Assembly (NCBI RefSeq): GCF_014651675.1
Contig: NZ_BMXI01000003.1
Coordinates: 71,604-135,603 of the forward strand
DNA from: Roseibacillus persicicus
Lineage (GTDB): Bacteria; Verrucomicrobiota; Verrucomicrobiia; Verrucomicrobiales; Akkermansiaceae
DNA length: 64,000 nt
Direction: 5' to 3'
Below, in pieces: positions 44,299 to 64,000 of this stretch. Made by a program: the position numbers and the translations under genes. Under the pieces are notes generated by a model, which was not told where the DNA came from, ran no database searches, and saw only the letters and a program-made list of their open reading frames with translations. Each line of letters opens with the position of its first letter. Within the stretch, counting starts at the first letter, position 1.

Positions 44299-46887
44299 AT
44301 GTCAACGGAAGCCCAAACGGCTGTCTGGTTCTATGTGGATAGCCAGCGCGAAAAGCAAGGACCCTACACGGTTCTGGAATTTAAAGAGCTTGCCGATCAG
44401 GGCGTTATCCTCGCAGACACCTTGATCTGGAGCAATGGGTATGAGGCATGGGTCCCGGCCCGTCAATTAGCTGGCCTAATCCCCGAACAAACATCTTCAC
44501 CCAAAGAGACCGCTCCCGAGCCAACTCCCGAGCCCTCGCCAGCTAACGAACCCGAGCCATTGCCAGACGAATCACACAAGCCCCGCTGGGGTTCATTCGT
44601 TTTTCCCCGGCTGATTGTCGGTTTCGCGCTTTCCCTCATCCCCTCCCTCATCGCCGTGATTGCCTGCTTGGCCCTCCAGCAACCGCCATTGATTGGAGCG
44701 GCAGTCTTTCTCCTCTTTGCCATCCTGACTGTTTTCGCTGCCCTCGTGTGCTATCGCAAGGAGCGCTACGAGCTCACCGACACCACCGTCCTTCGGCACT
44801 GTGGCGGACTCATGAGTGACCAGACCACTGAGGTGGAAATTTGCAACATCACCCATGTCTCCATGAAGCGCCCATGGCTACGACACAAGCTCTTCGGAAT
44901 TGGAACCATTGAAATCGAGTCGGCGGGGACTTCCAAGCCAGTCGCTCTGAAAGCCATTTGTGACCCTGCGGGAGTCTATGAACGCCTGACCGTGCGAATG
45001 CAACGGAACGGCTATCAGTTGAAAAAGAAAGAACTCCTCCACGAAGAACGCCCAGCGATTCGAGGTATCCTAGTTCATTCTTTCCAAATGGTGATGGGCA
45101 CAATCCTGGCTTTGATCTTCGGTAGTTCGACGCTGGCCAGCCTTCACCAGCAACTGACGGAAACCGGCTTGGCGTGGATTTCGCCCATCGCTATCGGCCT
45201 CTTTGCAGTGGTGGCTCTGGCGTTCTTTCTCGTCTATTTTCTCGATATGCGGAGACGCACCTACCGCGTTTTCGACGATGCCGTGGTCTACGAGGAAGGT
45301 TTTCTCACGCGACGAAGCGCCTTCATCCCCTATGAAAACATTGCCGACGCCGCCACCAAACGAACCTTCCTCGATCAGGTCTTCAACATCTTTGATGTTC
45401 TCGTCAGCTGTCAGGGTAGTTCGACCGTGATCAAGTTTCGCGGGCTCAAGGAAGGAGTCCAGCTCTCGGACTTCATCGAACAGCTGGTCACCGAGGCCAA
45501 TCAAAAGCCTTCCCCCGCCGAGCGCTTGGCTGCCCGGCGCTCGGACTTGGAGGAACCCGCCATCCCCAGCCGTCAGGAGCCGGACCTCGTTGCACCCGGC
45601 GAGGCCTGGATCGCCGACCTAGGCATGCACCCCACCCGCGTCTTCGTTCCCTTGCTCGTTCTGCTGCCCATCTTTCCCCTCTGGATTGTGGCGATGATTC
45701 AATGGGCAATCAAGATGACCTGCACCACCTACGAAGTCCGGGCGGGCTCAATCGGCCATTCCTACCGTTTTCTAACAAGTAGCGAACGCGAGTTCGCCTA
45801 CGACAAGATTACGGGCCTCGTTATCAAGGAGAATCTCTGGGATCGACTCTTCGGCACCTTCACCCTGCGCTTCTGGTCCATCGGTTCGGGACAGTCTCTG
45901 GAGTTGGCCCATGTCCACCGTTCGCTGGTCGATCTGGATGCATTGCTTCGACAAATCGGAATTCCCAACGCCTCGGAACAATCCCGCCTCATTCCCTCTC
46001 GCTTCGGGGCCTTCGCCTGGATGCGGGCCCGGTTGTATCGCTTGAGCTTTTCGCTCTTGGCTACGATTGGTCTAGTAGTTGCCGCCGTCCTCACAGACGA
46101 AAGCCTGTTCTACCTCGCGGCAGGACTGTTCCCGCTTCTCGTGCTTGTCGGCTTTGCCTACGCTTGGACTTTTTACTCCAGGCAGCAGCTCATCTTTCAG
46201 GATCACCACATCGAAGCAGCACAGGGCATCATCGCTCGAAAGAGCTACTTCGTCCGCTACCGCAACGTGAAGCAGAACGTGGTGACCACCTACCCCGGCG
46301 GGACAGACGGGTCCTTGCAGATCTTCGTCGCAGGCGAACAGATGATCGGGCAACAGTCGGAGAAAAAGGGCCAACAGCAAATCCCTGTCCCCTGCTCCTT
46401 CACTCTAGGATTCCTCCCGGACGCGATGAAGCAAGGTCAGCTCCTCGATGATATTCTTGGGGGACGGGTCGAAGTGACCTCCGAGTGTGAACCCGCCGAA
46501 CCCCTCGAACTGGTCACCGAGTCCACTCGGGGACTGGGCAATGCGGTCTTTTTCCTTTTCCTTTGGAGTCTGCTCCTTGTCCCCATGATTCTCCTCCTGC
46601 CCATCACCTTGCCCCTCACCATCCTAGCGACAAAAAGGTGGCGCTATCGGGTGGAAAGGGGTCGCATGGTGGCATCCTGGGGTCTGCTTTTCAAAAAGCG
46701 GGCGAGCATCTTGCTGGACCGGGTCGACAGTCTGGAACAACGGCAGGGCTTCCTGAACAAGATGTTCAAAAACGGCAACGTCAGCATCATGACCGCCGGC
46801 AGCAGCAAGCCCGACCTGGTGATGGTAGCCGCCAAATCCTACAAAAATCTCTATGATGAGATCCGCCAGCTCTCCCGCAAAGGTTAG
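44299..46887 (+). CDS. Membrane protein with GYF_2 domain and repeated bacterial PH domains
   Basis: An 862-residue protein. Residues 1-60 form a GYF_2-type domain (VWFYVDSQREKQGPYTVLEFKELA, IWSNGYEAWVP). After a proline/glutamate-rich linker come three repeats, each a pair of membrane helices followed by a bacterial PH (DUF304/YdbT-type) domain: ELTDTTVLRHCGGL ... ICNITHVSMKRP; RVFDDAVVYEEGF ... IPYENIADAATKR; and YRVERGRMVASWGLLFKKRASILLDRVDSLE. YdbS/YdbT-like proteins sit in the inner membrane and have been linked to bacteriocin protection in Bacillus. Fusion to GYF_2 is characteristic of Verrucomicrobiota and Planctomycetes. Confidence 0.8.
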   Translation: MSTEAQTAVWFYVDSQREKQGPYTVLEFKELADQGVILADTLIWSNGYEAWVPARQLAGLIPEQTSSPKETAPEPTPEPSPANEPEPLPDESHKPRWGSFVFPRLIVGFALSLIPSLIAVIACLALQQPPLIGAAVFLLFAILTVFAALVCYRKERYELTDTTVLRHCGGLMSDQTTEVEICNITHVSMKRPWLRHKLFGIGTIEIESAGTSKPVALKAICDPAGVYERLTVRMQRNGYQLKKKELLHEERPAIRGILVHSFQMVMGTILALIFGSSTLASLHQQLTETGLAWISPIAIGLFAVVALAFFLVYFLDMRRRTYRVFDDAVVYEEGFLTRRSAFIPYENIADAATKRTFLDQVFNIFDVLVSCQGSSTVIKFRGLKEGVQLSDFIEQLVTEANQKPSPAERLAARRSDLEEPAIPSRQEPDLVAPGEAWIADLGMHPTRVFVPLLVLLPIFPLWIVAMIQWAIKMTCTTYEVRAGSIGHSYRFLTSSEREFAYDKITGLVIKENLWDRLFGTFTLRFWSIGSGQSLELAHVHRSLVDLDALLRQIGIPNASEQSRLIPSRFGAFAWMRARLYRLSFSLLATIGLVVAAVLTDESLFYLAAGLFPLLVLVGFAYAWTFYSRQQLIFQDHHIEAAQGIIARKSYFVRYRNVKQNVVTTYPGGTDGSLQIFVAGEQMIGQQSEKKGQQQIPVPCSFTLGFLPDAMKQGQLLDDILGGRVEVTSECEPAEPLELVTESTRGLGNAVFFLFLWSLLLVPMILLLPITLPLTILATKRWRYRVERGRMVASWGLLFKKRASILLDRVDSLEQRQGFLNKMFKNGNVSIMTAGSSKPDLVMVAAKSYKNLYDEIRQLSRKG

Positions 46888-49085: not shown

Positions 49086-49598
49086 GTGAAAAAGCTGTTC
49101 TCCCCTCTTCTTTTCCTGCCACTCCTCGCTCTCCTGCTCACTTCCTGTGGCGGCGGAGACTACAAGGGCTACCAGACCCGCTCCTACACCATCCGGGGTC
49201 AGCACTACCAACCGCTCAGCGTGGAGCAGGCTCTCACCTACCGCGAACGCGGCATCGCCTCGTGGTATGACGAGTCCTCCTTCCTCGGGCTCAAACGCGG
49301 CAATACTTCCTTGGGCGAAAAGGTCATGCCGTGGCACATCTCCGCCGCCCACAAGACCCTCCCCCTGCCTTGCGTGGTCAAGGTCACGAACCTGAAGAAC
49401 GGGAAAAGCCTGAAGATGCGGGTCAATGACCGGGGACCCTTCATCGCCGGACGCATCATCGACGTCACTCCCCGCGCCGCTCGCAAGCTCGGCTTCGCGG
49501 ACCAGGGCCTCACCGATTGCGAGGTCGAAGTCATCTCGATCGGCGATGGCAAATACAAGCGCAAGGCCAAGCGAGGCTTCAGCTTGTGGCCATTCTAG
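49086..49598 (+). CDS. rlpA: RlpA-like septal lipoprotein
   Basis: A 170-residue protein from the GTG at 49086. The signal peptide ends in the lipobox LLTSC. The double-psi beta-barrel follows: GIASWYDESSFLGLKRGNTS, HKTLPLPCVVKVTNL, VNDRGPF, RIIDVTPRAARKLGF. RlpA binds, and in some species cleaves, denuded peptidoglycan at the division septum. It lacks the C-terminal SPOR domain of longer RlpA proteins. The catalytic-type Asp and His residues are kept. Confidence 0.88.
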   Translation: MKKLFSPLLFLPLLALLLTSCGGGDYKGYQTRSYTIRGQHYQPLSVEQALTYRERGIASWYDESSFLGLKRGNTSLGEKVMPWHISAAHKTLPLPCVVKVTNLKNGKSLKMRVNDRGPFIAGRIIDVTPRAARKLGFADQGLTDCEVEVISIGDGKYKRKAKRGFSLWPF

Positions 49599-49669: not shown

Positions 49670-50206
49670 ATGAATTCCGACCGCGACAGAGACAAATTGA
49701 TCCCCATCGAACGGGGTGATCAGTTTACCCGCCACCTGGTGACCGCCCAGCCGCGGATCCGGGGCTTCATCTTTTCGCTGGTCGGCGACCAAACAGCCAC
49801 CGACGACATCTTGCAAGAGGTCAGCACCGTCCTGTGGCGCAAGTTTGATCAATTCGAGCCCGGCACCAACTTCACCAGCTGGGCGCTCAGCATCGCCCGC
49901 TTCTCCGTCTTGGAATGGCGGCGGCAGCAGAAGCGGGTCCCGCTGCCCATCGAGGAAGAAACCCTCCACGCCCTCGCCGACGAAGCGGAAGCGTTCGCCC
50001 TCCCCCTCGCTGACATGAGAGAGCCGCTGCGACTCTGCCTGACCCAGCTCTCCCCCCGCCAGCAGCAGCTCATCACCGAGCGCTACCTGCGTGACGAGCC
50101 CGTGCAAAGCATCGCCACCCGCTGGCAGCGAACCCGCATGGCCATCTACAAGCTCCTCAACAAAACCCACCAGCAGCTCCTCCTCTGCCTTCGCACCCAT
50201 GCCTGA
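49670..50206 (+). CDS. ECF-type RNA polymerase sigma factor
   Basis: A 178-residue sigma factor of the Planctomycetes/Verrucomicrobia type. Region 2 is at about 25-85 (FIFSLVGDQTATDDILQEVSTVLWRK, WALSIARFSVLEWRR) and region 4 at about 120-170 (LSPRQQQLITERYLRDEPVQS, TRMAIYKLLNKTHQ). Its end overlaps the start of the FecR-like gene, so both are made together. It likely drives expression of itself and the surface proteins encoded downstream (inference). Confidence 0.88.
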   Translation: MNSDRDRDKLIPIERGDQFTRHLVTAQPRIRGFIFSLVGDQTATDDILQEVSTVLWRKFDQFEPGTNFTSWALSIARFSVLEWRRQQKRVPLPIEEETLHALADEAEAFALPLADMREPLRLCLTQLSPRQQQLITERYLRDEPVQSIATRWQRTRMAIYKLLNKTHQQLLLCLRTHA

Positions 50207-51518
50207 ACTCTCTCCAGACGACCGGCTCTTGGTCACGCGCTTCTTCGAGGAAGACCTTTCTTCCGAGGAAAGAGCTCTTTTGGTCTCCAAGCTCGAAGGC
50301 TCACCCGCGCTGCGCACCGCCTATTTGGAGGAAGCCGCCCTCATCAGCCTCCTGCAAGAACTCCCCGAAGAGACTCTCGACCAAGCGAAGCCCCAGCGCC
50401 ACCACAAGAAGACTTGGCTCCCCGCCATTGGGATCGCCGCTGCCGCCGGGATTGCACTGGCTCTCTTTTTCCCAAAGAGCACCCCAGCACCCTCTTCCCA
50501 ACAGGCTTCGATCCGAGCCTCGCACGGAGCACTTCTCATCAACGGGAAAGCGGCGAATCAAAATTCCATTGTCACCTCAGGGCAGACGGTGCAGCTAAAC
50601 GGGGAACACTCGTCCGCCAACCTCACCTTCTCCGATGGCAGCCAGCTCCTCCTCACCGGTGACAGCAAGCTGACCCTGTTAGATAAAGGGCGCCGCGGGG
50701 TGGAGATGGAAAGCGGTGTCGTCCACGCCTCCATGAGCGACCATAGAACGGACTCCCCCTTCCTCGTGGTCACCCCCACTTCGCGACTGGAAGCTCCCGG
50801 CAGCCGCTTCGCGCTCGAGATGGCTTCAGACAAAACACGTTTCGTGGTGAGCGAGGGAAAGGTGAAACTCAAGGACCTCGCCCAGAGCAAGGTCCAGACC
50901 TTTGCCACCGGAGTCGAAGTTGAACGAAAGGGCGCGGGCCGCTTTGAGGTCTCCTCCAGTCAGCGCTCCCAATTTTCCTGGCAGTACGACTTCGAAGAAC
51001 CTTCCCCGGAGGATTATCTCGGCACTCCCATCACCTCCGACCTGCCCGCTGGCTCACGCGGTGGCGCCCTCGCAACCGCGTCCTTTGTTGAGGGTATGGG
51101 TCGCTATTTCTATCAAATCGGATTCCGCGATTACCTCACCGGACTTTGCCAAATCACGGATGACAGCCATCTGGAGATGACCTTCCGCACGCGACAACCC
51201 TACTGGTTCAACACCTTCATCCACGCCATCGATCTGCGCGAGGGGGAGACGCTGGATGTGAAGATCTACAAGCTCGCGCCCGCTCAGCTCCGCAACAAAG
51301 GCTACGTCCGCGACCTGTGGAACCAGGCCACCATCCCCCTGTCCGCCTTCCGCGAACAGGGCGATGGCAGCTTCAACGGTCCTCCTCCCGAGGCGGGACT
51401 TCTCATCACCACTCTCTACGTCAGCTCGCCGGAACCCGAGCGCGACCTTCGCCTGGATGACATCGCTATTTTGCCCTCGGGCGAAGGCCGCATCGTCCTC
51501 GAACCCCTAACCCCATAA
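50199..51518 (+). CDS. FecR-like anti-sigma/transducer protein
   Basis: A 439-residue protein whose ATG (50199) lies inside the end of the sigma gene. Residues 1-60 are an acidic helical anti-sigma-like part (LSPDDRLLVTRFFEEDLSSEERALLV). One membrane helix follows (about 70-86, GIAAAAGIALALFF), then a periplasmic FecR domain (about 100-240: ANLTFSDGSQLLLTGDSKLTLLD, APGSRFALE). The C-terminal ~190 residues are a beta-rich, possibly carbohydrate-binding domain (HLEMTFRTRQPYWFNTFIHA). It likely senses an outer signal and controls the sigma factor. Six bases separate it from the giant surface protein. Confidence 0.85.
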   Translation: MPELSPDDRLLVTRFFEEDLSSEERALLVSKLEGSPALRTAYLEEAALISLLQELPEETLDQAKPQRHHKKTWLPAIGIAAAAGIALALFFPKSTPAPSSQQASIRASHGALLINGKAANQNSIVTSGQTVQLNGEHSSANLTFSDGSQLLLTGDSKLTLLDKGRRGVEMESGVVHASMSDHRTDSPFLVVTPTSRLEAPGSRFALEMASDKTRFVVSEGKVKLKDLAQSKVQTFATGVEVERKGAGRFEVSSSQRSQFSWQYDFEEPSPEDYLGTPITSDLPAGSRGGALATASFVEGMGRYFYQIGFRDYLTGLCQITDDSHLEMTFRTRQPYWFNTFIHAIDLREGETLDVKIYKLAPAQLRNKGYVRDLWNQATIPLSAFREQGDGSFNGPPPEAGLLITTLYVSSPEPERDLRLDDIAILPSGEGRIVLEPLTP

Positions 51519-51524
51519 AACAAC

Positions 51525-54500
51525 ATGAATCCCCTCGCACCCGGGGTGGCAGCGGCTCTCCTTGTCGCTCCCCCCTGCCTTCTTGCCAATCCTCTCGACC
51601 GTGACGGAGACGGTTTTTCCGACATCTGGCAAAGCCAGTTTCAAGCGCCCACCCTCAATCCGACCGGTGATCCCGACGGCGACGGCTACCCCAATGCCGA
51701 AGAAGAAACAGCAGGCACCGACCCCTTCGATGCCAGCTCTTACCCCAACATCCGGGCCTTCATCTACGATCAATCTAGTAGCGAAGTTGCCTTCGAGGTC
51801 GATACCCTCAAGGGTAAGCAATACGGAATCATCGGCACTGAGGACCTCTCCTCCGCGGGCCCGTGGGACACCGTTCTCCCCTTCACAACTGCGGAAAACA
51901 ACGCGACGACACTTTTCCCACCCGGCCCCATCCCCGTCCCCTATCCCAACCTGGGATTCTTTCGTCTTCAAATTCAGGACATCGACGAAGATGGCGACGG
52001 GCTCACCGCCTATGAGGAATGCCTCATCGGCACCTCTGACCAGACCCCCAACAGCTCACCGGACCCACGGGGAAATGACTGCGAGACAGCGGAAGACTGG
52101 CTGGAAACAAACACCCCCGGAGTCCATCCCCAAGGCGCGCAAGATAACCTCTCCGCCCTTTCCCTCGCCCACCTGCAAAGCGACACCATTGGGCAAACTT
52201 CCTATTCCCTGATGGTCACGGCCACGGGTTCGGACAGTTGGCACCAGCTCACTTCCTGGAATCTATCAGGTTCTAACAACTTCACTGAGATGCGCAGCAC
52301 CCCACCCATTGCGGGGAAGCAGCCGGAGGTTCACGCCCTTCCCCACACCCATGCGCAAACCGGACAACCTCTCTTTCTCACCACCAACATCCGGCCCGAT
52401 GGCGGTCTCTGGCTATCACTGCGCTCCATTGGCCTGAACGGAGAGTTCACCCACCATCACACCGTGGGATACGGTCCCCAGTTGGGGCTCACTGTTTTTC
52501 GATATGCCGTCTCCACCCGCCTCATCTACGACGCTGCGCAGAACCCCATTGTCCAGGTCGTCACCCCCGTGGCCGCAAGCAGCTCTTCTATCGACAGCGC
52601 CAACTCGACTTGGCGGGTCCTCGTGTGGCACATCGACCTCGCCAACCGCTCTCTAACAGGGACGGACGACTCCGGGATGCTGGATGGTCGCGTCACCCTC
52701 CGACGTGATGGTCTGCCGAGCAGCCTCACCGCAACCCATCTCGGCTTGGGCTCCTTTGTGTTCAACTATCCTTCCACCACTGTGGGACCTACCCCGAGTG
52801 ACTATCACCTCGTCCATGGCTATGGACGGGTCGATCAAGCAGGCCGGTTCACCTACGAGCGCTCCACCCTCTTCCAGCGTTCGCTCGAGGGGGACGACCA
52901 ATCGCGCGCCTTTCTAACAGGTTCCCGGCTCGCCACCACCTCGCTGGACTGGAATGGCTACCTGAATGCACGCTACGCGGAGGTCAACACCGCCCCTCCC
53001 GGCAGAGAGGAGAACCTGGAAGAAAAATTAGTCCTCACGGTCTATGAAAAGCGGTCTTTCTACGGCGGGGAACCCGAGGCACAGAATATCACCAATCAGC
53101 TGGGGGACCTTTCGCCGGACTTTCACGGCGTTCACCCTCCCGTCCCGACCTTGACGAATTCCGTCGTGGACCAGGGAGAGACCAACGATCTCTTCGGCTC
53201 GGTCATGGCCGCTGGCGACTTCAATGGCGATGGCACAAAGGACTTCGCAGTAGGCATTCCCTCCCGGGCTGTTAGTCGCGACAACAGTTCTTACGCGAAC
53301 GCCGGTCAAGTCGCGGTCTACTTCAGCGGTGGAGCAGAACCTTTTTCATGGGAAGAACCCGACCAAACCTTTGACCAAGAAACCGAAAGCTTGCCTGGCG
53401 TGGCTGAAGAGAACGACCAATTTGGCAACGCTCTCGCAGGGGGCGACTTCAATGGCGATGGCTACGACGACCTCGCGATTGGGGTCTCGGGGGAAGAAAA
53501 CTTTGCCGGCGCCAACTCGCAAAATTCTGGAGTGATTCAGATTCTTTATGGTTCGCCCTTCGGTCTTGTGCACCCTGGTAATCAGGTCATTTCGCAGGAG
53601 TCTCTTGGGCAGAGCTCTGCCACCGATGACTTCTTCGGCTACACTTTAGCCAGCGGCGACCTCAATGGAGACGGCTACGCCGACCTTGCCATTGGATGCC
53701 CCTATCGCGATGTCGATGGCGTGGTTAATGCGGGGGTCGTCTACCGCGCCTGGGGCACGGAGAACGGGCTCAACACCAGTGCAAATTCTCTCATTCATCA
53801 GGGTCTTTCCAGCTATCCCGAAGCCCTCGGTGCGCACGACCTCTTTGGACATTCTCTTGCGGTGGGAGACTTCAATGGTGGCTCGCCCGACGACCTCGCC
53901 ATCGGGGTTCCTTTCGAAGATGCGGGCTCCCTCGCCGACACCGGGGGGGTGCAAATCGTCTATGGCGAAAACAGCTACACCGGCGACCCGGGGCCGTTCC
54001 TGACCCAATCCGGCTACTCTACAGGCGGCGATATTCCCGGGGCCAGGGAGGCGGGAGACCGCTTTGGTTGGGCTCTTGCGGCGGGCGACTTTACCGGTGA
54101 CGGGCGGGCCGACCTCGCGATTGGAGTTCCCAATGAAGCGGTTGGCAGCATCACCAACGCGGGGGCGGTGAACATTGTCTACGGCAGCCCCTCGGGTCTG
54201 GGCACGGGCAACGCCCTCTTGATTGGAGAGGATACAGCTAACCCGGTTGGACCCGATTTGCCCGGCGAGGCCGAAAGCGGTGATCGCTTTGGCTATGCTC
54301 TCGCCGCCGGTGACATCGACGACGACGGCTACGCCAACCTCGTGATCGGGATTCCCTATGAAGGTGCTTCGGCGGGAGAAAACAAGGGCGCGCTGCTGGT
54401 GGTCGATGGAAGCTCCTCGGGAATTCTCACCACGACTCCTGGCACCTACCGTTTGGATGAGACCACCGACGATAGCAGCATTCTGTTAGGAAGCGCTCTT

Positions 54501-55952
54501 CTGTTGGCCGACCTCGATGGAGACGGAAAGGAAGACATCCTCGCGGGAGCGCCCAGCTTGGACCTGGACGAAGACACCGCAAACTCGGGAAGTATTCGCA
54601 TCTACTCCAATGCCGGTTCTTTCAAACTCCAGCACACGCGCCGCGAAGAGGTGCGCGCCCTTCTGCTCGATATCGACAAGGAAGCCAGCACTGGAACCGG
54701 ACGACTTTATTCCGAGAATCTCAACGCGGGTCTTCCCCACGTTCACATTGCCTCCTGCACCAAGGTGATGACGCTTCTGCTCGCAGTCGACGCCATCAAT
54801 GAGGGCTTGGTCGATCTGGATGACCCGGTGGAATTCTCGGAGAGGGCTGGAACGACTGGGGGATCGAAACTCGACTATTGGATTTTTGACTCGGCTTCCG
54901 AAAGCCATTCCGAACCCTACCCCTCGGAGTGGGACACCATTCGTTTCCTCAAGGATGACGAGGGAGAAACGATTCCCTTCTTTCTGCCGGGCGACGAGTT
55001 TTCTCTCGAGATGCTGCTTCACGCCATGATGATGGAATCGTGCAACCGCGCTTCGGTCGCGATTGCCGAGTTCATTTCGCAAGCTCGATTCGGACATCCC
55101 AACGGCTTCATTGATTTGATGGATGACCGCGGCGACGGCTTGGGAATGGCTTCTACCGTTTGGGGTCACCCGGCAGGAGGCTGCGTCACCAATGCCGACG
55201 AGATGATTCTCATGATGCTGGAAGGCTGGAAGGACCCACTCTTTCGCCGCATCATGGGGGCGGAAACTTTCGGCTTCGGAAGCCAACTCCCCCACCTCAC
55301 TGGAACCGACGACAACGGCCTCACCAAATCTAACAACCCTTTCCAAAAGATCACCACCATCGGCCTCTATCCCGGTCGGGAAATCTGGAAAGGAGGGAAC
55401 GGATACCTTTGGTGGAATTCAGGAGATCACCCGGAAGGTCGCTACCGTCCCCGCGTTTCCAGATGCACCAGCTCCGCTCTGGGCATCGTGTCTCGTCTCG
55501 GCGTCCCGCTTGCCATTGCCTTGCAACAAACAGGAAGCCGACCCGGTGATTGCTTGCGGCTCTTTTCCTACGGGTTTCAAAAGACCTTCACTCCCGACTG
55601 GCGTGGGGAAGCGGAGTGGCCGACGACCTCCGGTGGGGTGACAGGGACTCAAGCCAATCCCGTGCTGACCTCCTCCGTTCCCCTTTCCGACAGCCGCATG
55701 GTGACTGCCATCATCGATGACTCACGGTCGCTCAAGCTCGTCCATTGGAACATCGACGCCAATAGCGGAACCCTCTCCGCCAACGGCGCTACCGAAAAAC
55801 AGTTCTCCCTTCTTGGTGCCCCTGCGACTTTGCCCGATTCTCCCATCGAGCTTCTCGATATTCCCTCCACCCGTGCTCGCAAGGACCTGCTTTCTCTTGA
55901 GTTGATTGATGGGCACATCGAACTCAAGCTCTGGAGAATCGCCGAGAACTAA
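51525..55952 (+). CDS. Giant surface protein: FG-GAP repeats fused to an S11-type serine peptidase domain
   Basis: A 1475-residue secreted protein. After a signal peptide (ending near LLANP) come calcium-binding repeats (DRDGDGFSDIW, DPDGDGYPNAEEETAGTDP). A beta region leads to about seven FG-GAP repeats at residues 545-1025 (LFGSVMAAGDFNGDGTKDFAVG and variants), an integrin-like beta propeller. Residues 1040-1350 resemble D-Ala-D-Ala carboxypeptidases: SCTK (Ser1077, Lys1080), MESCN (Ser1172, Asn1174) and a KGG motif near 1289. The last ~120 residues form a beta domain. The active-site triad looks intact, so peptidoglycan or ester/amide hydrolysis is possible. Part of the ECF/FecR operon. 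Confidence 0.8.
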   Translation: MNPLAPGVAAALLVAPPCLLANPLDRDGDGFSDIWQSQFQAPTLNPTGDPDGDGYPNAEEETAGTDPFDASSYPNIRAFIYDQSSSEVAFEVDTLKGKQYGIIGTEDLSSAGPWDTVLPFTTAENNATTLFPPGPIPVPYPNLGFFRLQIQDIDEDGDGLTAYEECLIGTSDQTPNSSPDPRGNDCETAEDWLETNTPGVHPQGAQDNLSALSLAHLQSDTIGQTSYSLMVTATGSDSWHQLTSWNLSGSNNFTEMRSTPPIAGKQPEVHALPHTHAQTGQPLFLTTNIRPDGGLWLSLRSIGLNGEFTHHHTVGYGPQLGLTVFRYAVSTRLIYDAAQNPIVQVVTPVAASSSSIDSANSTWRVLVWHIDLANRSLTGTDDSGMLDGRVTLRRDGLPSSLTATHLGLGSFVFNYPSTTVGPTPSDYHLVHGYGRVDQAGRFTYERSTLFQRSLEGDDQSRAFLTGSRLATTSLDWNGYLNARYAEVNTAPPGREENLEEKLVLTVYEKRSFYGGEPEAQNITNQLGDLSPDFHGVHPPVPTLTNSVVDQGETNDLFGSVMAAGDFNGDGTKDFAVGIPSRAVSRDNSSYANAGQVAVYFSGGAEPFSWEEPDQTFDQETESLPGVAEENDQFGNALAGGDFNGDGYDDLAIGVSGEENFAGANSQNSGVIQILYGSPFGLVHPGNQVISQESLGQSSATDDFFGYTLASGDLNGDGYADLAIGCPYRDVDGVVNAGVVYRAWGTENGLNTSANSLIHQGLSSYPEALGAHDLFGHSLAVGDFNGGSPDDLAIGVPFEDAGSLADTGGVQIVYGENSYTGDPGPFLTQSGYSTGGDIPGAREAGDRFGWALAAGDFTGDGRADLAIGVPNEAVGSITNAGAVNIVYGSPSGLGTGNALLIGEDTANPVGPDLPGEAESGDRFGYALAAGDIDDDGYANLVIGIPYEGASAGENKGALLVVDGSSSGILTTTPGTYRLDETTDDSSILLGSALLLADLDGDGKEDILAGAPSLDLDEDTANSGSIRIYSNAGSFKLQHTRREEVRALLLDIDKEASTGTGRLYSENLNAGLPHVHIASCTKVMTLLLAVDAINEGLVDLDDPVEFSERAGTTGGSKLDYWIFDSASESHSEPYPSEWDTIRFLKDDEGETIPFFLPGDEFSLEMLLHAMMMESCNRASVAIAEFISQARFGHPNGFIDLMDDRGDGLGMASTVWGHPAGGCVTNADEMILMMLEGWKDPLFRRIMGAETFGFGSQLPHLTGTDDNGLTKSNNPFQKITTIGLYPGREIWKGGNGYLWWNSGDHPEGRYRPRVSRCTSSALGIVSRLGVPLAIALQQTGSRPGDCLRLFSYGFQKTFTPDWRGEAEWPTTSGGVTGTQANPVLTSSVPLSDSRMVTAIIDDSRSLKLVHWNIDANSGTLSANGATEKQFSLLGAPATLPDSPIELLDIPSTRARKDLLSLELIDGHIELKLWRIAEN

Positions 55953-55958
55953 GCTGCC

Positions 55959-57320
55959 ATGAAAACCCTCCCCCTTCTCATTTTCGCTACTAGCGCCTGC
56001 GCCGACGACCTCGCGCCCCTGAGTGACGAGTTCAACAACGCCTCCACCTGGCAAAACTGGTCCGACTTGGCAGAAGTCGAAGGCTGGCAAGCCCCCTCCT
56101 ACGAGACCGCCGATATCAACACCAGCGAGGCAGGTCGCTTTCACATCGTTCCCGCGAGCAACACTTGGTTCGGCCATTTGCGGGGATTGCTTTTCTTCAA
56201 GGAAGTCACCGGCGACTTTGTCGTCACCACCCGCCTCCGGGTCCTGAGTCGGCACAATACGGAGGACCCAAACGAGATCCCCAACCGCAGTTTTTCTCTC
56301 ACCGGCATCCTTGTCCACGGGCCCCGCGACATCACGCAAGCCGCACCAGTTCCCTACACCACGGATGCGGTCTGGCCGCCACAGGACTTTGGCAGTGACT
56401 ATGAGGCAAACAGCGAGAACTACATCTTCCTCAGCTACGGTACCGCGGGCAATCCCGGCACCCGCCAGTTCGAGATCAAGGCAACCCGCAACAGCAACTC
56501 ACGTCTCTATTATGATGATACCGGCATCGACCAAAATCAAACCGAGGCTTGGCTCCAGATGGTTCGGGTAGGCGACACCATCGTTTGCCTGCGCAAGCAC
56601 TCGGAAGACGGCGAGTGGATTGTGGAGAATCGCTACCCCAATCCCGATCATCCCTTCCCCGACTTTGGCCCCACTTTGCAAGTAGGCCTCACCGCTTACA
56701 CCGACTGGCCCACTGCGGCCCCTTTCAACGCGGCCGGATTGGAGGCTTGCTATCACTTCAACTACGCCCCGCCCGCCAGCAGCACCCGTGACCTCATCTC
56801 GCAAGTCGACTACTTCCGCTTTGCGCGGCCGAACCCCGCCCTCACCGAAGCTCACTTGCAGGGCATGAGCACTAGCTACGATCCTTCTAGTAATTCAACG
56901 GCCAATCCCCCCATCCTGCTCAACGCCTCGCCCACCGCCCAAGACTATCTTGGCGAGACCGCGAACACGCCCTTCGACTTCAGCGCCGACAATGATGGCG
57001 ACGGCTTCCCCGACAGTCTCGAAGTCGCATTGGGCAGCGACGCCAGCAATGCCTCTTCCCTACCGCTCATCACCTGCGAGGTGGTGGAAGAAAGCTTCCA
57101 CTACTCTTTCCCTACTCTCACCTCTGGCCTAGAACTGGAAGTGCAGACCTCACATGACCTAGTCACTTGGCACACAATCGCAAGTCGGCCCGGCAACTCC
57201 ATTCTCTGGACCACCGAGCCGTCTCATTCCGTGCTACTTAACGAAGAGACTCAACGCTTATCCGCCATCATTCCGATGGACGAACAGGTTCAGTTCGTTC
57301 GTCTGGCAGGCATCTTCTAA
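55959..57320 (+). CDS. Secreted laminin-G-like (DUF1349-type) protein
   Basis: A 453-residue exported protein with signal peptide MKTLPLLIFATSACA. Residues 20-300 form a concanavalin-like beta-sandwich (LSDEFNNASTWQNW, TGDFVVTTRLRV, ATRNSNSRLYYDD, LQVGLTAYTDW) like DUF1349/LamG proteins that bind carbohydrates. A calcium repeat follows (DNDGDGFPDSLEVALGSD), and the tail carries VQTSHDLVTWHTI ... VQFVRLAG, the window's recurrent C-terminal module. It follows the FG-GAP/S11 protein by 6 bases, so the two are likely co-expressed. Confidence 0.75.
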   Translation: MKTLPLLIFATSACADDLAPLSDEFNNASTWQNWSDLAEVEGWQAPSYETADINTSEAGRFHIVPASNTWFGHLRGLLFFKEVTGDFVVTTRLRVLSRHNTEDPNEIPNRSFSLTGILVHGPRDITQAAPVPYTTDAVWPPQDFGSDYEANSENYIFLSYGTAGNPGTRQFEIKATRNSNSRLYYDDTGIDQNQTEAWLQMVRVGDTIVCLRKHSEDGEWIVENRYPNPDHPFPDFGPTLQVGLTAYTDWPTAAPFNAAGLEACYHFNYAPPASSTRDLISQVDYFRFARPNPALTEAHLQGMSTSYDPSSNSTANPPILLNASPTAQDYLGETANTPFDFSADNDGDGFPDSLEVALGSDASNASSLPLITCEVVEESFHYSFPTLTSGLELEVQTSHDLVTWHTIASRPGNSILWTTEPSHSVLLNEETQRLSAIIPMDEQVQFVRLAGIF

Positions 57321-57339: not shown

Positions 57340-59676
57340 TCAAAGCTTCTCTTTCACTCGAAAGAACCCCCGCGGGCTTTCCTGAAGCAAGGCGGGAAGG
57401 ACGAACTGGAAGGAAGACTCGGCCCCTTGTGAAAAGACGTCACTGGCACAGGTAATTGGAAAATCCTGCAAGTCCGTCGAGCCGATGATGTCGTAGGATT
57501 TTCCGGGGCTGGAATGCCAGTGCAGTTGCACCTGCTCGTCTTCTTTCAACTCGATATTCTCCACCTTGAGCTCGTTTTGCAGCAGCGCCATGACCTCGGT
57601 ATCGAAGTTCGTATAGGTCGAGTATGTGCCATGGAACCACACGAGGGCCTTATCGTAGCCATGCCCCTCGGGAACGATGGGACGGAGATTGTCTTTCGAC
57701 GAGCCCACCGTGATCTGCTCCCACGTGAACGTCTCGCCGCCATCCTGAGTGACTCCGCGGAAGATTTCGTAGCGGTTGCCTGCTCGCAGAGGAACATCAT
57801 TGATATCATCCAGATTGAAAGGGTTCGCCGCGTTGGAGGAGAAGTAGATCACATTGGGTTGTTCGGGATCGATAGTCATGCCCCCGCCGTAATCATCCTC
57901 ATTGGAATAGAGCGGCCGACCGGCGTGGGCGACGAACTTTTTCTTCCACTCACTGCCATCCCAGCGAGCGTAATAGTAGTAGATCCGGTCGTTGTCCCAT
58001 CCCGTGCCAGTGACGTTGTCGCTCTGGACCTGGAAAACGCAAACCGGATTGCCATCCTTTTCATATGCAACATCCCAGCACCATGCCCGGCCGGAAGGAA
58101 TCCAGTCATCGGGTCCATCGTTGGCCGTCCAAGGCGCGGCGGAGTATTGATACACCACGCTCCCCTTTTCGCCCGCATCATGGTCCAATGGCAGATCGGG
58201 GAAGGACTTGATCAAGCCTCCGTCGGTTCTCCTGATTCTCCCCTCCTGATAGAACAGGTGGTAAAGCGAATTGGCGACGTCGCGCGGATGTCCATCGGTG
58301 TAGATCAGGTCGATGCGGTTCTTGTGGTTGGACACGAAGCGGGTGTAGGGACGAACTCCACCCGTTCCCGTATCGATGAAGTGAAGCGGGGTGCTCCAGC
58401 TCGCGCCATTGTCCGTCGAGATACTGAGAGTGGGGTTGAAGTTGATGCAGCGGTGGAAGTTGTAGATGGCATTGTCTTCCTCGGCCAAGCGATAGGTATT
58501 CGCGTAGGTATTGCTGGCGGGAGTCGACACGACCACTTCCGGTCCCCAGTCAGCCGCAGTGGTGGGCAAGGGAACCAAAGAAGTCCGGGTGTAGTATTGC
58601 GAGCCTGCGATGTGCTTCGAGTAGACCGCGAGCAGCTTGCCATCGGGTAGAACCGTGAGGGAAGGATTGTTGTGATCGTCCTGCTGACGGGATGCCGCAG
58701 TGCTGATGATCACCTCATCACTTTGATGGGTCTCCGGGTTGTATCGGGTGATGCCATAGCGTCCATCTCCCTTCACGTATCCCGCGAAGAGAGAGCCCTG
58801 ATGCATGATGGCCCGTTCGTCGTTGAACCAAGTCCACGCCCCGTTGCTATTGATCGAGTGAGCCCCTCCCGGCCCTGGGGGAACCGATGCAGCTAAAAGA
58901 GGGTCCGATCCCGCTGAGACCTCCGCGCCGTCGGAGTAGCTATCGCCATCGGTATCGACGCGGGCAGGATCGGTTCCCGCCGTCTCTTCATCACCATTGC
59001 TCAGGCCATCGCCATCAAGGTCGCCTGCAGGGTCCAGATCTTTCACCGCCAGATAGCCAACACCATCATACCAAGTCCTTTGATTTACTGTTGTCTCTGT
59101 TGGTAGATCGTCGATGTAAACCGAGAGCTTGCCGTCTTGCCCTGCCGCTGCCGTTCCCAGTCCCGCCGCCAGGAGAACCCGTCCGCCTTCGGCAAAGATG
59201 GTTGGCGCAACCGCGAAGTCCTGAGTGCTTGCGACCAGAGCCGACTCCGTGCTTTCACCGAAAGACCCCGCCGAATCAGCCGCAGAGAACAAAGCGTTGC
59301 TCCCGGGATTGGAACTGAATCCTCCACGGATATTCCAGTCCTCCTGAAGACTTCCCGGGTCCCAAAAGTAGAGAAAGACGATGTAGTCTTCACCCGCATC
59401 CAATCCGGAGATCGTAGTGCGCAGTTCCGGGGCATCCTCAGGAATCGCCCCTCCCTCGCCACTGGACTCGAAGATGGTTCCCCCTGAGCCGAAGGTGCTT
59501 CGTTGCTCCCAGTCATTGTCTTGCCCGGTCGTTCCATTTTGTGGAGGGCTGAAGAGGTTTCCGACGGAAAGAGTGGTATTGCCGCCGCTGCCAGCGGTGG
59601 CATCTAGATAGGTGATTTGCCCCTGGAGTGGGGCGAGTGCTGATAAAAGAAGTAATGGGATTCGCATTGAGATCAT
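57340..59676 (-). CDS. Secreted BNR_4-repeat protein, possible polysaccharide lyase or sialidase-like
   Basis: A 778-residue exported protein (signal peptide ending near LAPLQG). Residues 20-200 are a beta-sandwich with DAGEDYIVFLYFWD. Two calcium repeats follow (DLDGDGLSNGDEETAGTDP). Residues ~270-710 match the BNR_4 beta-propeller (GAWTWFNDERAIMHQG, LFAGYVKGDGRYGITRYN, DDHNNPSLTVLPDGKL, LSISTDNGASW), a fold of ulvan lyases and related enzymes. The C-terminus is the recurrent module (IIGSTDLQDF ... GFFRVKE). Likely acts on an algal or host polysaccharide outside the cell. Faces the previous gene tail to tail. Confidence 0.75.
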   Translation of the reverse strand: MISMRIPLLLLSALAPLQGQITYLDATAGSGGNTTLSVGNLFSPPQNGTTGQDNDWEQRSTFGSGGTIFESSGEGGAIPEDAPELRTTISGLDAGEDYIVFLYFWDPGSLQEDWNIRGGFSSNPGSNALFSAADSAGSFGESTESALVASTQDFAVAPTIFAEGGRVLLAAGLGTAAAGQDGKLSVYIDDLPTETTVNQRTWYDGVGYLAVKDLDPAGDLDGDGLSNGDEETAGTDPARVDTDGDSYSDGAEVSAGSDPLLAASVPPGPGGAHSINSNGAWTWFNDERAIMHQGSLFAGYVKGDGRYGITRYNPETHQSDEVIISTAASRQQDDHNNPSLTVLPDGKLLAVYSKHIAGSQYYTRTSLVPLPTTAADWGPEVVVSTPASNTYANTYRLAEEDNAIYNFHRCINFNPTLSISTDNGASWSTPLHFIDTGTGGVRPYTRFVSNHKNRIDLIYTDGHPRDVANSLYHLFYQEGRIRRTDGGLIKSFPDLPLDHDAGEKGSVVYQYSAAPWTANDGPDDWIPSGRAWCWDVAYEKDGNPVCVFQVQSDNVTGTGWDNDRIYYYYARWDGSEWKKKFVAHAGRPLYSNEDDYGGGMTIDPEQPNVIYFSSNAANPFNLDDINDVPLRAGNRYEIFRGVTQDGGETFTWEQITVGSSKDNLRPIVPEGHGYDKALVWFHGTYSTYTNFDTEVMALLQNELKVENIELKEDEQVQLHWHSSPGKSYDIIGSTDLQDFPITCASDVFSQGAESSFQFVLPALLQESPRGFFRVKEKL

Positions 59677-63556: not shown

Positions 63557-64000
63557 TTGAAGCCCTCATTCCAAAGCAACGAAGAAGCGGTCACTCATGT
63601 GCAGGAGCTCTTTCTCAAGCACATCGACGAGATTCGGGGGTTCATCCGAGCCTTTGCCCGCAACAGGCCGCTGGCAGACGATGTACTGCAGGAAACTTTT
63701 CTCACCATCACCGCCAAGGCCGACTCCTTCGAGCCCGGCACCAAGTTTCCCCAATGGGCCCGCGCCATTGCTCGCTTCAAGATTCTCGAACTCAGTCGTC
63801 GCGACACCGGTCGCCTCAGCTTCCTAACCGAAGAAGCCATCGAAGTCCTCGCCGGAGAAAACGAACAACCCGAGTGGGACGAAAATTTCGAGCCCTTGGA
63901 AGAATGCGTGGAGGAGCTCCCCGCCAGCATGCGAAAAATGATCGACCTTCGTTATCAGGCCGGCCGCAAACCCGCCGCCATCGCCGAACAAGTTGGCTGG
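63557..64000 (+). CDS. ECF-type sigma factor, partial (cut by right edge)
   Basis: A sigma factor of the same Planctomycetes/Verrucomicrobia group as the gene at 49670; at least 148 residues to the window end. Region 2 is seen as FIRAFARNRPLADDVLQETFLTI and WARAIARFKILELSRRDTG, region 4 as LPASMRKMIDLRYQAGRKPAAIAEQVGW. The start may be the TTG at 63557 or the GTG at 63599. The 200 bases between it and the divergent PEP-CTERM gene are AT-rich and should contain both promoters. A FecR-like gene is expected just outside the window. Confidence 0.85.
   Translation, partial: MKPSFQSNEEAVTHVQELFLKHIDEIRGFIRAFARNRPLADDVLQETFLTITAKADSFEPGTKFPQWARAIARFKILELSRRDTGRLSFLTEEAIEVLAGENEQPEWDENFEPLEECVEELPASMRKMIDLRYQAGRKPAAIAEQVGW

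Follow-up and report, generated by a model that had tools for sequence, protein, structure and literature searches.

What could an enzyme of the penicillin-binding protein (PBP) fold act on when it is carried behind an integrin-like propeller and has glycine in place of the threonine of its third signature motif? This question is raised by a gene of Roseibacillus persicicus, located in a stretch of 64,000 nucleotides of contig NZ_BMXI01000003.1 (the window, i.e., the whole stretch that was analyzed), which encodes a protein of 1475 amino acids (aa) in which FG-GAP repeats are fused to a Peptidase S11 domain (Table 1). In this open reading frame (ORF), domains of three types exceeded the Pfam cut-offs: (i) a TSP3-type repeat (TSP3_bac, aa 49–70, 7.7e-6, 26.1 bits for a cut-off of 25), (ii) seven stretches of FG-GAP (1.6e-48), and (iii) Peptidase_S11 in two stretches (PF00768, 1.7e-15, 57.6 bits for a gathering cut-off of 27.6). 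A first-pass annotation, made from the sequence without database searches, had claimed a propeller and an S11-fold domain in one chain with calcium-type repeats at the N-terminus, and these matches bear out both points. The phmmer searches of PDB sequences gave integrin alpha-5 for the propeller part (4.7e-13) and, for the last part, the D-Ala-D-Ala carboxypeptidase 4k91 (2.1e-4), followed by PBP4 entries at 5e-4 and weaker. Calcium-type DxN/DxDG loops can be read in five of the seven blades (aa 565, 641, 712, 930, and 996). Judged from its sequence, the protein is an exported-looking, multidomain member of the S11 (low-molecular-mass PBP) lineage.

The motifs SxxK, SxN, and KTG (more broadly KT/SG) are those of the PBPs in the excerpts available of a review (PMC13118971) and of a structure paper (PMC3276566), the latter describing them as invariant among structures across transpeptidase, endopeptidase, and carboxypeptidase functions. 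In the fusion protein, SCTK, SCN, and KGG each occur once, and Ser1077, Ser1172, and Lys1289 stand exactly where the first-pass annotation had placed them. It had taken all three for motifs of S11 carboxypeptidases, which is correct for SCTK and SCN but not for KGG, the S11 motif being KT/SG and the threonine being replaced here by glycine. Because of this third motif, the label of S11 carboxypeptidase is not safe. When the domain was aligned with 12 S11-like rows (11 loci from viral contigs and L025), Ser1077, Thr1079, Lys1080, Ser1172, Lys1289, and Gly1291 were invariant columns. For SxxK this invariance is by construction, because 11 of the 12 other rows had been fetched with an SxxK-based pattern, whereas for Ser1172 and Lys1289 it was not built in by the selection of the rows. 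The third motif of these 12 rows is KTG in nine, KRG in two (L127 and L132), and KGG in one (L138, at a contig end). KTG was also present in all 13 distinct stand-alone S11 rows retained by an SxxK/SxN pattern, a filter that excluded the paralogue on contig C10 of the same genome. Relative to the other rows of the alignment, the fusion domain has insertions before SxN and after KGG.

The structure of the domain was predicted with AlphaFold in a second model of 341 aa, built from the 13-row alignment. Its mean predicted local distance difference test score (pLDDT) was 64.8 and its predicted template modelling score 0.71, and ten-residue blocks scoring over 85 follow the SxxK serine and surround SxN; a model from a two-row alignment (A2; S11 domain and tail, mean pLDDT 37.6) was not used. 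The best PDB match given by Foldseek was the D-Ala-D-Ala carboxypeptidase 3mfd of B. subtilis (1.6e-12), and VIA-align gave Z values of 25.4 to 5tr7 (239 residues, 2.8 Å) and 25.0 to PBP5 of E. coli, 1nzo (248 residues, 3.3 Å). Since these PBP5/6 structures match over the domain, it is predicted to have the PBP5 fold, in which Lys1289 can be placed only tentatively. Structural modelling of Ser1077, Ser1172, and Lys1289, as put forward in the first-pass annotation, therefore gave a favorable answer for the fold over the whole domain and a low-confidence one for the region of Lys1289. Compared with Peptidase S11 (DacA/PBP5, PBP6, and PBP4 of S. aureus), the domain has the same PBP5/6 fold, SxxK, SxN, and the lysine and glycine of the third motif, but differs from PF00768 members by KGG for KT/SG, by its insertions, and by its position behind a propeller in so long a chain.

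The distribution of the fusion was surveyed in a draw of 260 genomes of the family and in an order-wide draw of 386, the genome draws overlapping, and sequences were taken from matches in frames of at least 888 aa and from one match at a contig end (G242). Six of the 386 genomes of the order (G000, which is the window genome, G261, G233, G398, G375, and G280) have a complete fusion in which both domains exceed the Pfam cut-offs. In the seventh relative, G242, the contig end leaves the KGG half and the tail only, and this remnant neither has a Pfam match nor shows a propeller. The fusion is thus rare but recurrent in the order, in line with the earlier remark that the two domains are seldom in one chain. 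Three subtypes could be distinguished by the third motif: A, with KGG, in G000, G261, and G242; B, in G233 (KPG) and G398 (KDG); and C, in G375 and G280, with the canonical KTG and likewise a propeller followed by S11. The counts for B and C are lower bounds, because the query of the order-wide draw was of subtype A; when an order draw of 177 genomes was searched with one of subtype C at E 1e-18, only G280 and G375 showed up as fusions. The protein of G261, which belongs to another family of the order, is a full-length orthologue with 38% identity along the whole chain, and Ser1077, Thr1079, Lys1080, Ser1172-Cys-Asn1174, and Trp1288-KGGNG are identical in both. The G242 fragment is 51% identical over its part of the S11 domain and likewise has KGG.

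Beyond these genomes, two phylum-wide searches of 387 genomes returned no further fused gene among the matches listed. Of these matches, the six that come from outside the order and lie in frames longer than 575 aa (G638, G643, G546, G754, G501, and G539) had no FG-GAP; the first five contain an S11 domain, and the 831-aa frame of G539 showed, by eye, S11 with KTG and no FG-GAP. None of the three other genomes of the same genus matched the S11 part at E 1e-3. Three scans of viral contigs gave no relative, and a fourth, based on an S11 alignment of nine rows, yielded 28 loci; IMG/VR contigs (L122–L148) carry S11-like proteins. Among the 19 profile-checked loci of a genome-contig scan, the S11 domain was present only in L025, and no ORF combined S11 with FG-GAP. 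A search of plasmids yielded a single, weak S11 match that extended over 44% of the query. In a tree of 24 rows, which omits G242 and duplicates, includes the C10 paralogue added by hand, and draws from the genome search only stand-alone rows passing the SxxK/SxN pattern, the six fusion S11 domains all fall to the same side of a branch that has support 53/71 and is present in 60% of the 200 bootstrap trees; the branches are long, and a single origin is left undecided.

In the window, the fusion gene follows genes for an extracytoplasmic function (ECF) sigma factor and a FecR-domain protein. The ECF stop and the FecR start overlap by 8 nt (the likely FecR start, ATG 50199, was read from the DNA, the mechanical ORF being 50091–51518), and gaps of 6 nt lie before and after the fusion gene. 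Such spacing fits one transcript and agrees with the operon proposed initially, in that the ECF/FecR pair does belong to the tight gene cluster of the fusion. The genome has five FecR genes, each adjoining a gvs1-type sigma gene (contigs C3, C4, C5, and C8). Downstream of the other four pairs are PSCyt1/PSD1 and DUF1501 genes (two pairs), PEP-CTERM-like proteins, and a TPR-like protein, the last two recognized by eye. Like gvs1-type ECF/FecR pairs in general, the pair studied here has a sigma factor over the TIGR02989 cut-off and an adjoining FecR gene; it differs by its FG-GAP/S11 cargo. Elsewhere in the genome, contig C21 carries a canonical S11 gene (STQK, SGN, and KTG), and contig C10 a second S11 paralogue (L068, 2482–3609; 104 bits for PF00768) with SLSQ, SDT, and KAG, which from these motifs is likely a degenerate S11.

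From these data, we favor, at about an even chance, an exported S11-fold hydrolase that is targeted by its propeller, has its Ser-Lys acylation center intact, and is altered in specificity. Lys1080 would activate Ser1077, which would still form an acyl-enzyme. The threonine of KTG has a role in recognizing the carboxylate. Loss of its hydroxyl would weaken the recognition of the free D-Ala carboxylate and of beta-lactams, and hence could lead to a preference for a peptide, amide, or ester other than the D-Ala-D-Ala end of the stem peptide. The propeller and the flanking modules may hold the enzyme at a surface or matrix ligand. Because an ECF sigma/FecR pair of its own accompanies the gene in the cluster, an enzyme that serves conditionally in the envelope or outside the cell is more likely than a housekeeping DD-carboxypeptidase; the canonical S11 gene on C21 likewise makes the fusion probably not the housekeeping enzyme. 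Several observations weigh against this proposal. KT/SG is reported as invariant in the excerpts of PMC3276566, and its loss may therefore mean that there is no activity. In the AlphaFold model, pLDDT fell below 50 over residues 242–257 and 262–299, on both sides of residue 260 (Lys1289). In addition, no FecR domain was found in 15 typed neighbor proteins of the relatives (G261, G233, G398, G375, and G280), so that the ECF/FecR pair is a feature of this genome and not of the fusion as such. The regulated surface enzyme acting on peptidoglycan that was first suggested thus keeps its exported-looking chain and its ECF/FecR cluster, but its identity as an S11 carboxypeptidase is weakened by KGG and its link to the regulators is specific to one genome.

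An ordinary DD-carboxypeptidase or endopeptidase that is exported, acts on the peptidoglycan of the cell itself, tolerates KGG, and is merely tethered by its propeller appears unlikely, though it deserves to be taken seriously. In its favor, the fold is preserved along with SxxK and SxN, the subtype C fusions keep KTG with the same layout, an RlpA-like DPBB gene lies just upstream (49086–49598), and KRG or KGG is found in three of the 12 other S11-like rows of the alignment. Against it, the threonine is lost in both subtypes A and B, while 13 of the 13 filtered stand-alone S11 rows retain KTG. Slightly less probable again is a pseudoenzyme, in which a dead S11 fold would serve as a binding module and the propeller would provide adhesion. 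The altered third motif would suit it, as would the KPG and KDG of subtype B, likewise devoid of threonine, and the C10 paralogue illustrates that motif loss occurs in this genome; but a dead site would not need Ser1077, Lys1080, Ser1172, Asn1174, and Lys1289, all kept in G261 at 38% overall identity. This retention, together with glycine at the threonine site in three genomes, suggests an altered active enzyme rather than a dead one. The first-pass annotation had also considered the peptidoglycan of prey, and a regulated enzyme directed against prey or competitors is very improbable: predatory PBP enzymes are described in Bdellovibrio in the excerpts of PMC3276566, though dacB/PBP4-like there, whereas no prey-related gene was recognized in the neighborhoods looked at, and the regulator pair has four counterparts in the genome, the cargo varying among the five.

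Returning to the hydrolase of altered specificity, a bolder and rather doubtful version of it is that the KGG subtype would form a separate class of PBP-fold acyl-enzymes, which would no longer recognize the D-Ala carboxylate and would have acquired a substrate other than peptidoglycan, to which the integrin-type propeller directs them; subtypes C (KTG), B (KPG/KDG), and A (KGG) would then trace this change step by step within one order. With one of the three signature motifs altered, the enzyme may have a target different from the usual one. If it is active, a conserved lineage would be able to do without the threonine or serine that is described as invariant in the third PBP motif. The fusions, with propellers of one kind throughout, would then form a natural series, ranging from the canonical KTG to KGG, in which the role of that residue could be probed. 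If it is inactive, a PBP fold would have been turned into a surface module.

The fusion also adds a rare domain pairing to the bacterial integrin-like propellers. In the part available of the study describing them (PMC3192720), these propellers have the same seven FG-GAP repeats and DxN/DxDG-type loops; here, only the propeller is integrin-like, and an enzyme fold comes after it. A trypsin-FG-GAP fusion of Streptomyces avermitilis (PMC2605481, excerpts) likewise joins a serine peptidase to FG-GAP repeats, but with an S1 trypsin fold and C-terminal FG-GAP, whereas the fold here is S11 and FG-GAP is on its N-terminal side. No paper on the FG-GAP/S11 pairing was found in a literature search of open-licence PMC papers. 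The coordinates of the features are collected in Table 1.

Table 1. Features of the fusion gene and of its cluster, in window positions.
Feature	Position	Strand	Basis or remark
ECF sigma factor, Sig-70_gvs1 (Rhodopirellula/Verrucomicrobium family)	49670..50206	+	TIGR02989, 136.7 bits for a cut-off of 124.55
FecR-domain protein, candidate anti-sigma regulator	50199..51518	+	PF04773, 4.6e-13
FG-GAP/S11 fusion protein, 1475 aa	51525..55952	+	Start 6 nt past FecR stop
Signal-peptide-like hydrophobic N-terminus, aa 1-21	51525..51587	+	Read by eye from sequence
TSP3-type/DxDGDG repeats, aa 25-161	51597..52007	+	Pfam TSP3_bac at aa 49-70
Stretch without Pfam match, aa 190-544	52092..53156	+	Alignable in G261 orthologue
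Seven FG-GAP repeats, integrin-type propeller, about aa 557-1028	53193..54608	+	Pfam; integrin alpha-5 match
S11/PBP-fold domain, about aa 1043-1352	54651..55580	+	PF00768; AlphaFold model, PDB matches
SxxK motif SCTK, putative nucleophile Ser1077, Lys1080	54753..54764	+	Once in protein; alignment
SxN motif SCN, aa 1172-1174, Ser1172	55038..55046	+	Once in protein; alignment
KGG in the place of KTG, Lys1289, Thr to Gly	55389..55397	+	Once in protein; alignment
C-terminal tail, aa 1372-1475	55638..55949	+	Alignable in G261 and G242
453-aa protein, 6 nt past fusion stop	55959..57320	+	Sub-threshold TSP3_bac match only

Two parts of the chain outside the Pfam matches, 52092–53156 and 55638–55949, have in common a VVT/VTA ... 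W-x-ID-like pattern. The idea that aa 190–544 and the C-terminal tail are blades of one propeller was tried and set aside as unproven, the hhalign probability of 16 not being significant.

The neighborhoods of the relatives were varied. The fusion of G261 is accompanied by a potassium transporter gene, a PQQ_2 gene, and a DDE_5 gene, that of G375 by a PSCyt-type gene and a Tyr-deacylase gene, and that of G280 by DUF3500 and DUF1501 genes. The G233 fusion has around it two genes for kinases, one for a GDSL protein, and one for a PF07638-type sigma factor, and a kinase gene is directly upstream of the G398 fusion on the same strand; both subtype B fusions thus adjoin Ser/Thr kinase genes (L065, 1862–5902 and 11818–15309; L092, 3659–6613). 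In the window itself, the RlpA-like DPBB protein (+ strand, PF03330, 1.2e-17) is encoded directly 5′ of the ECF gene, a possible cell-wall link. A protein with BNR_4 and TSP3 repeats (57340–59676, – strand) is convergent to the cluster, and the product of 44299–46887 (+ strand) combines a GYF_2 domain with four bPH_2 stretches. A further gvs1-type ECF sigma gene (63557–64000, + strand) runs off the window end, and is over the TIGR02989 cut-off at C3:135205.

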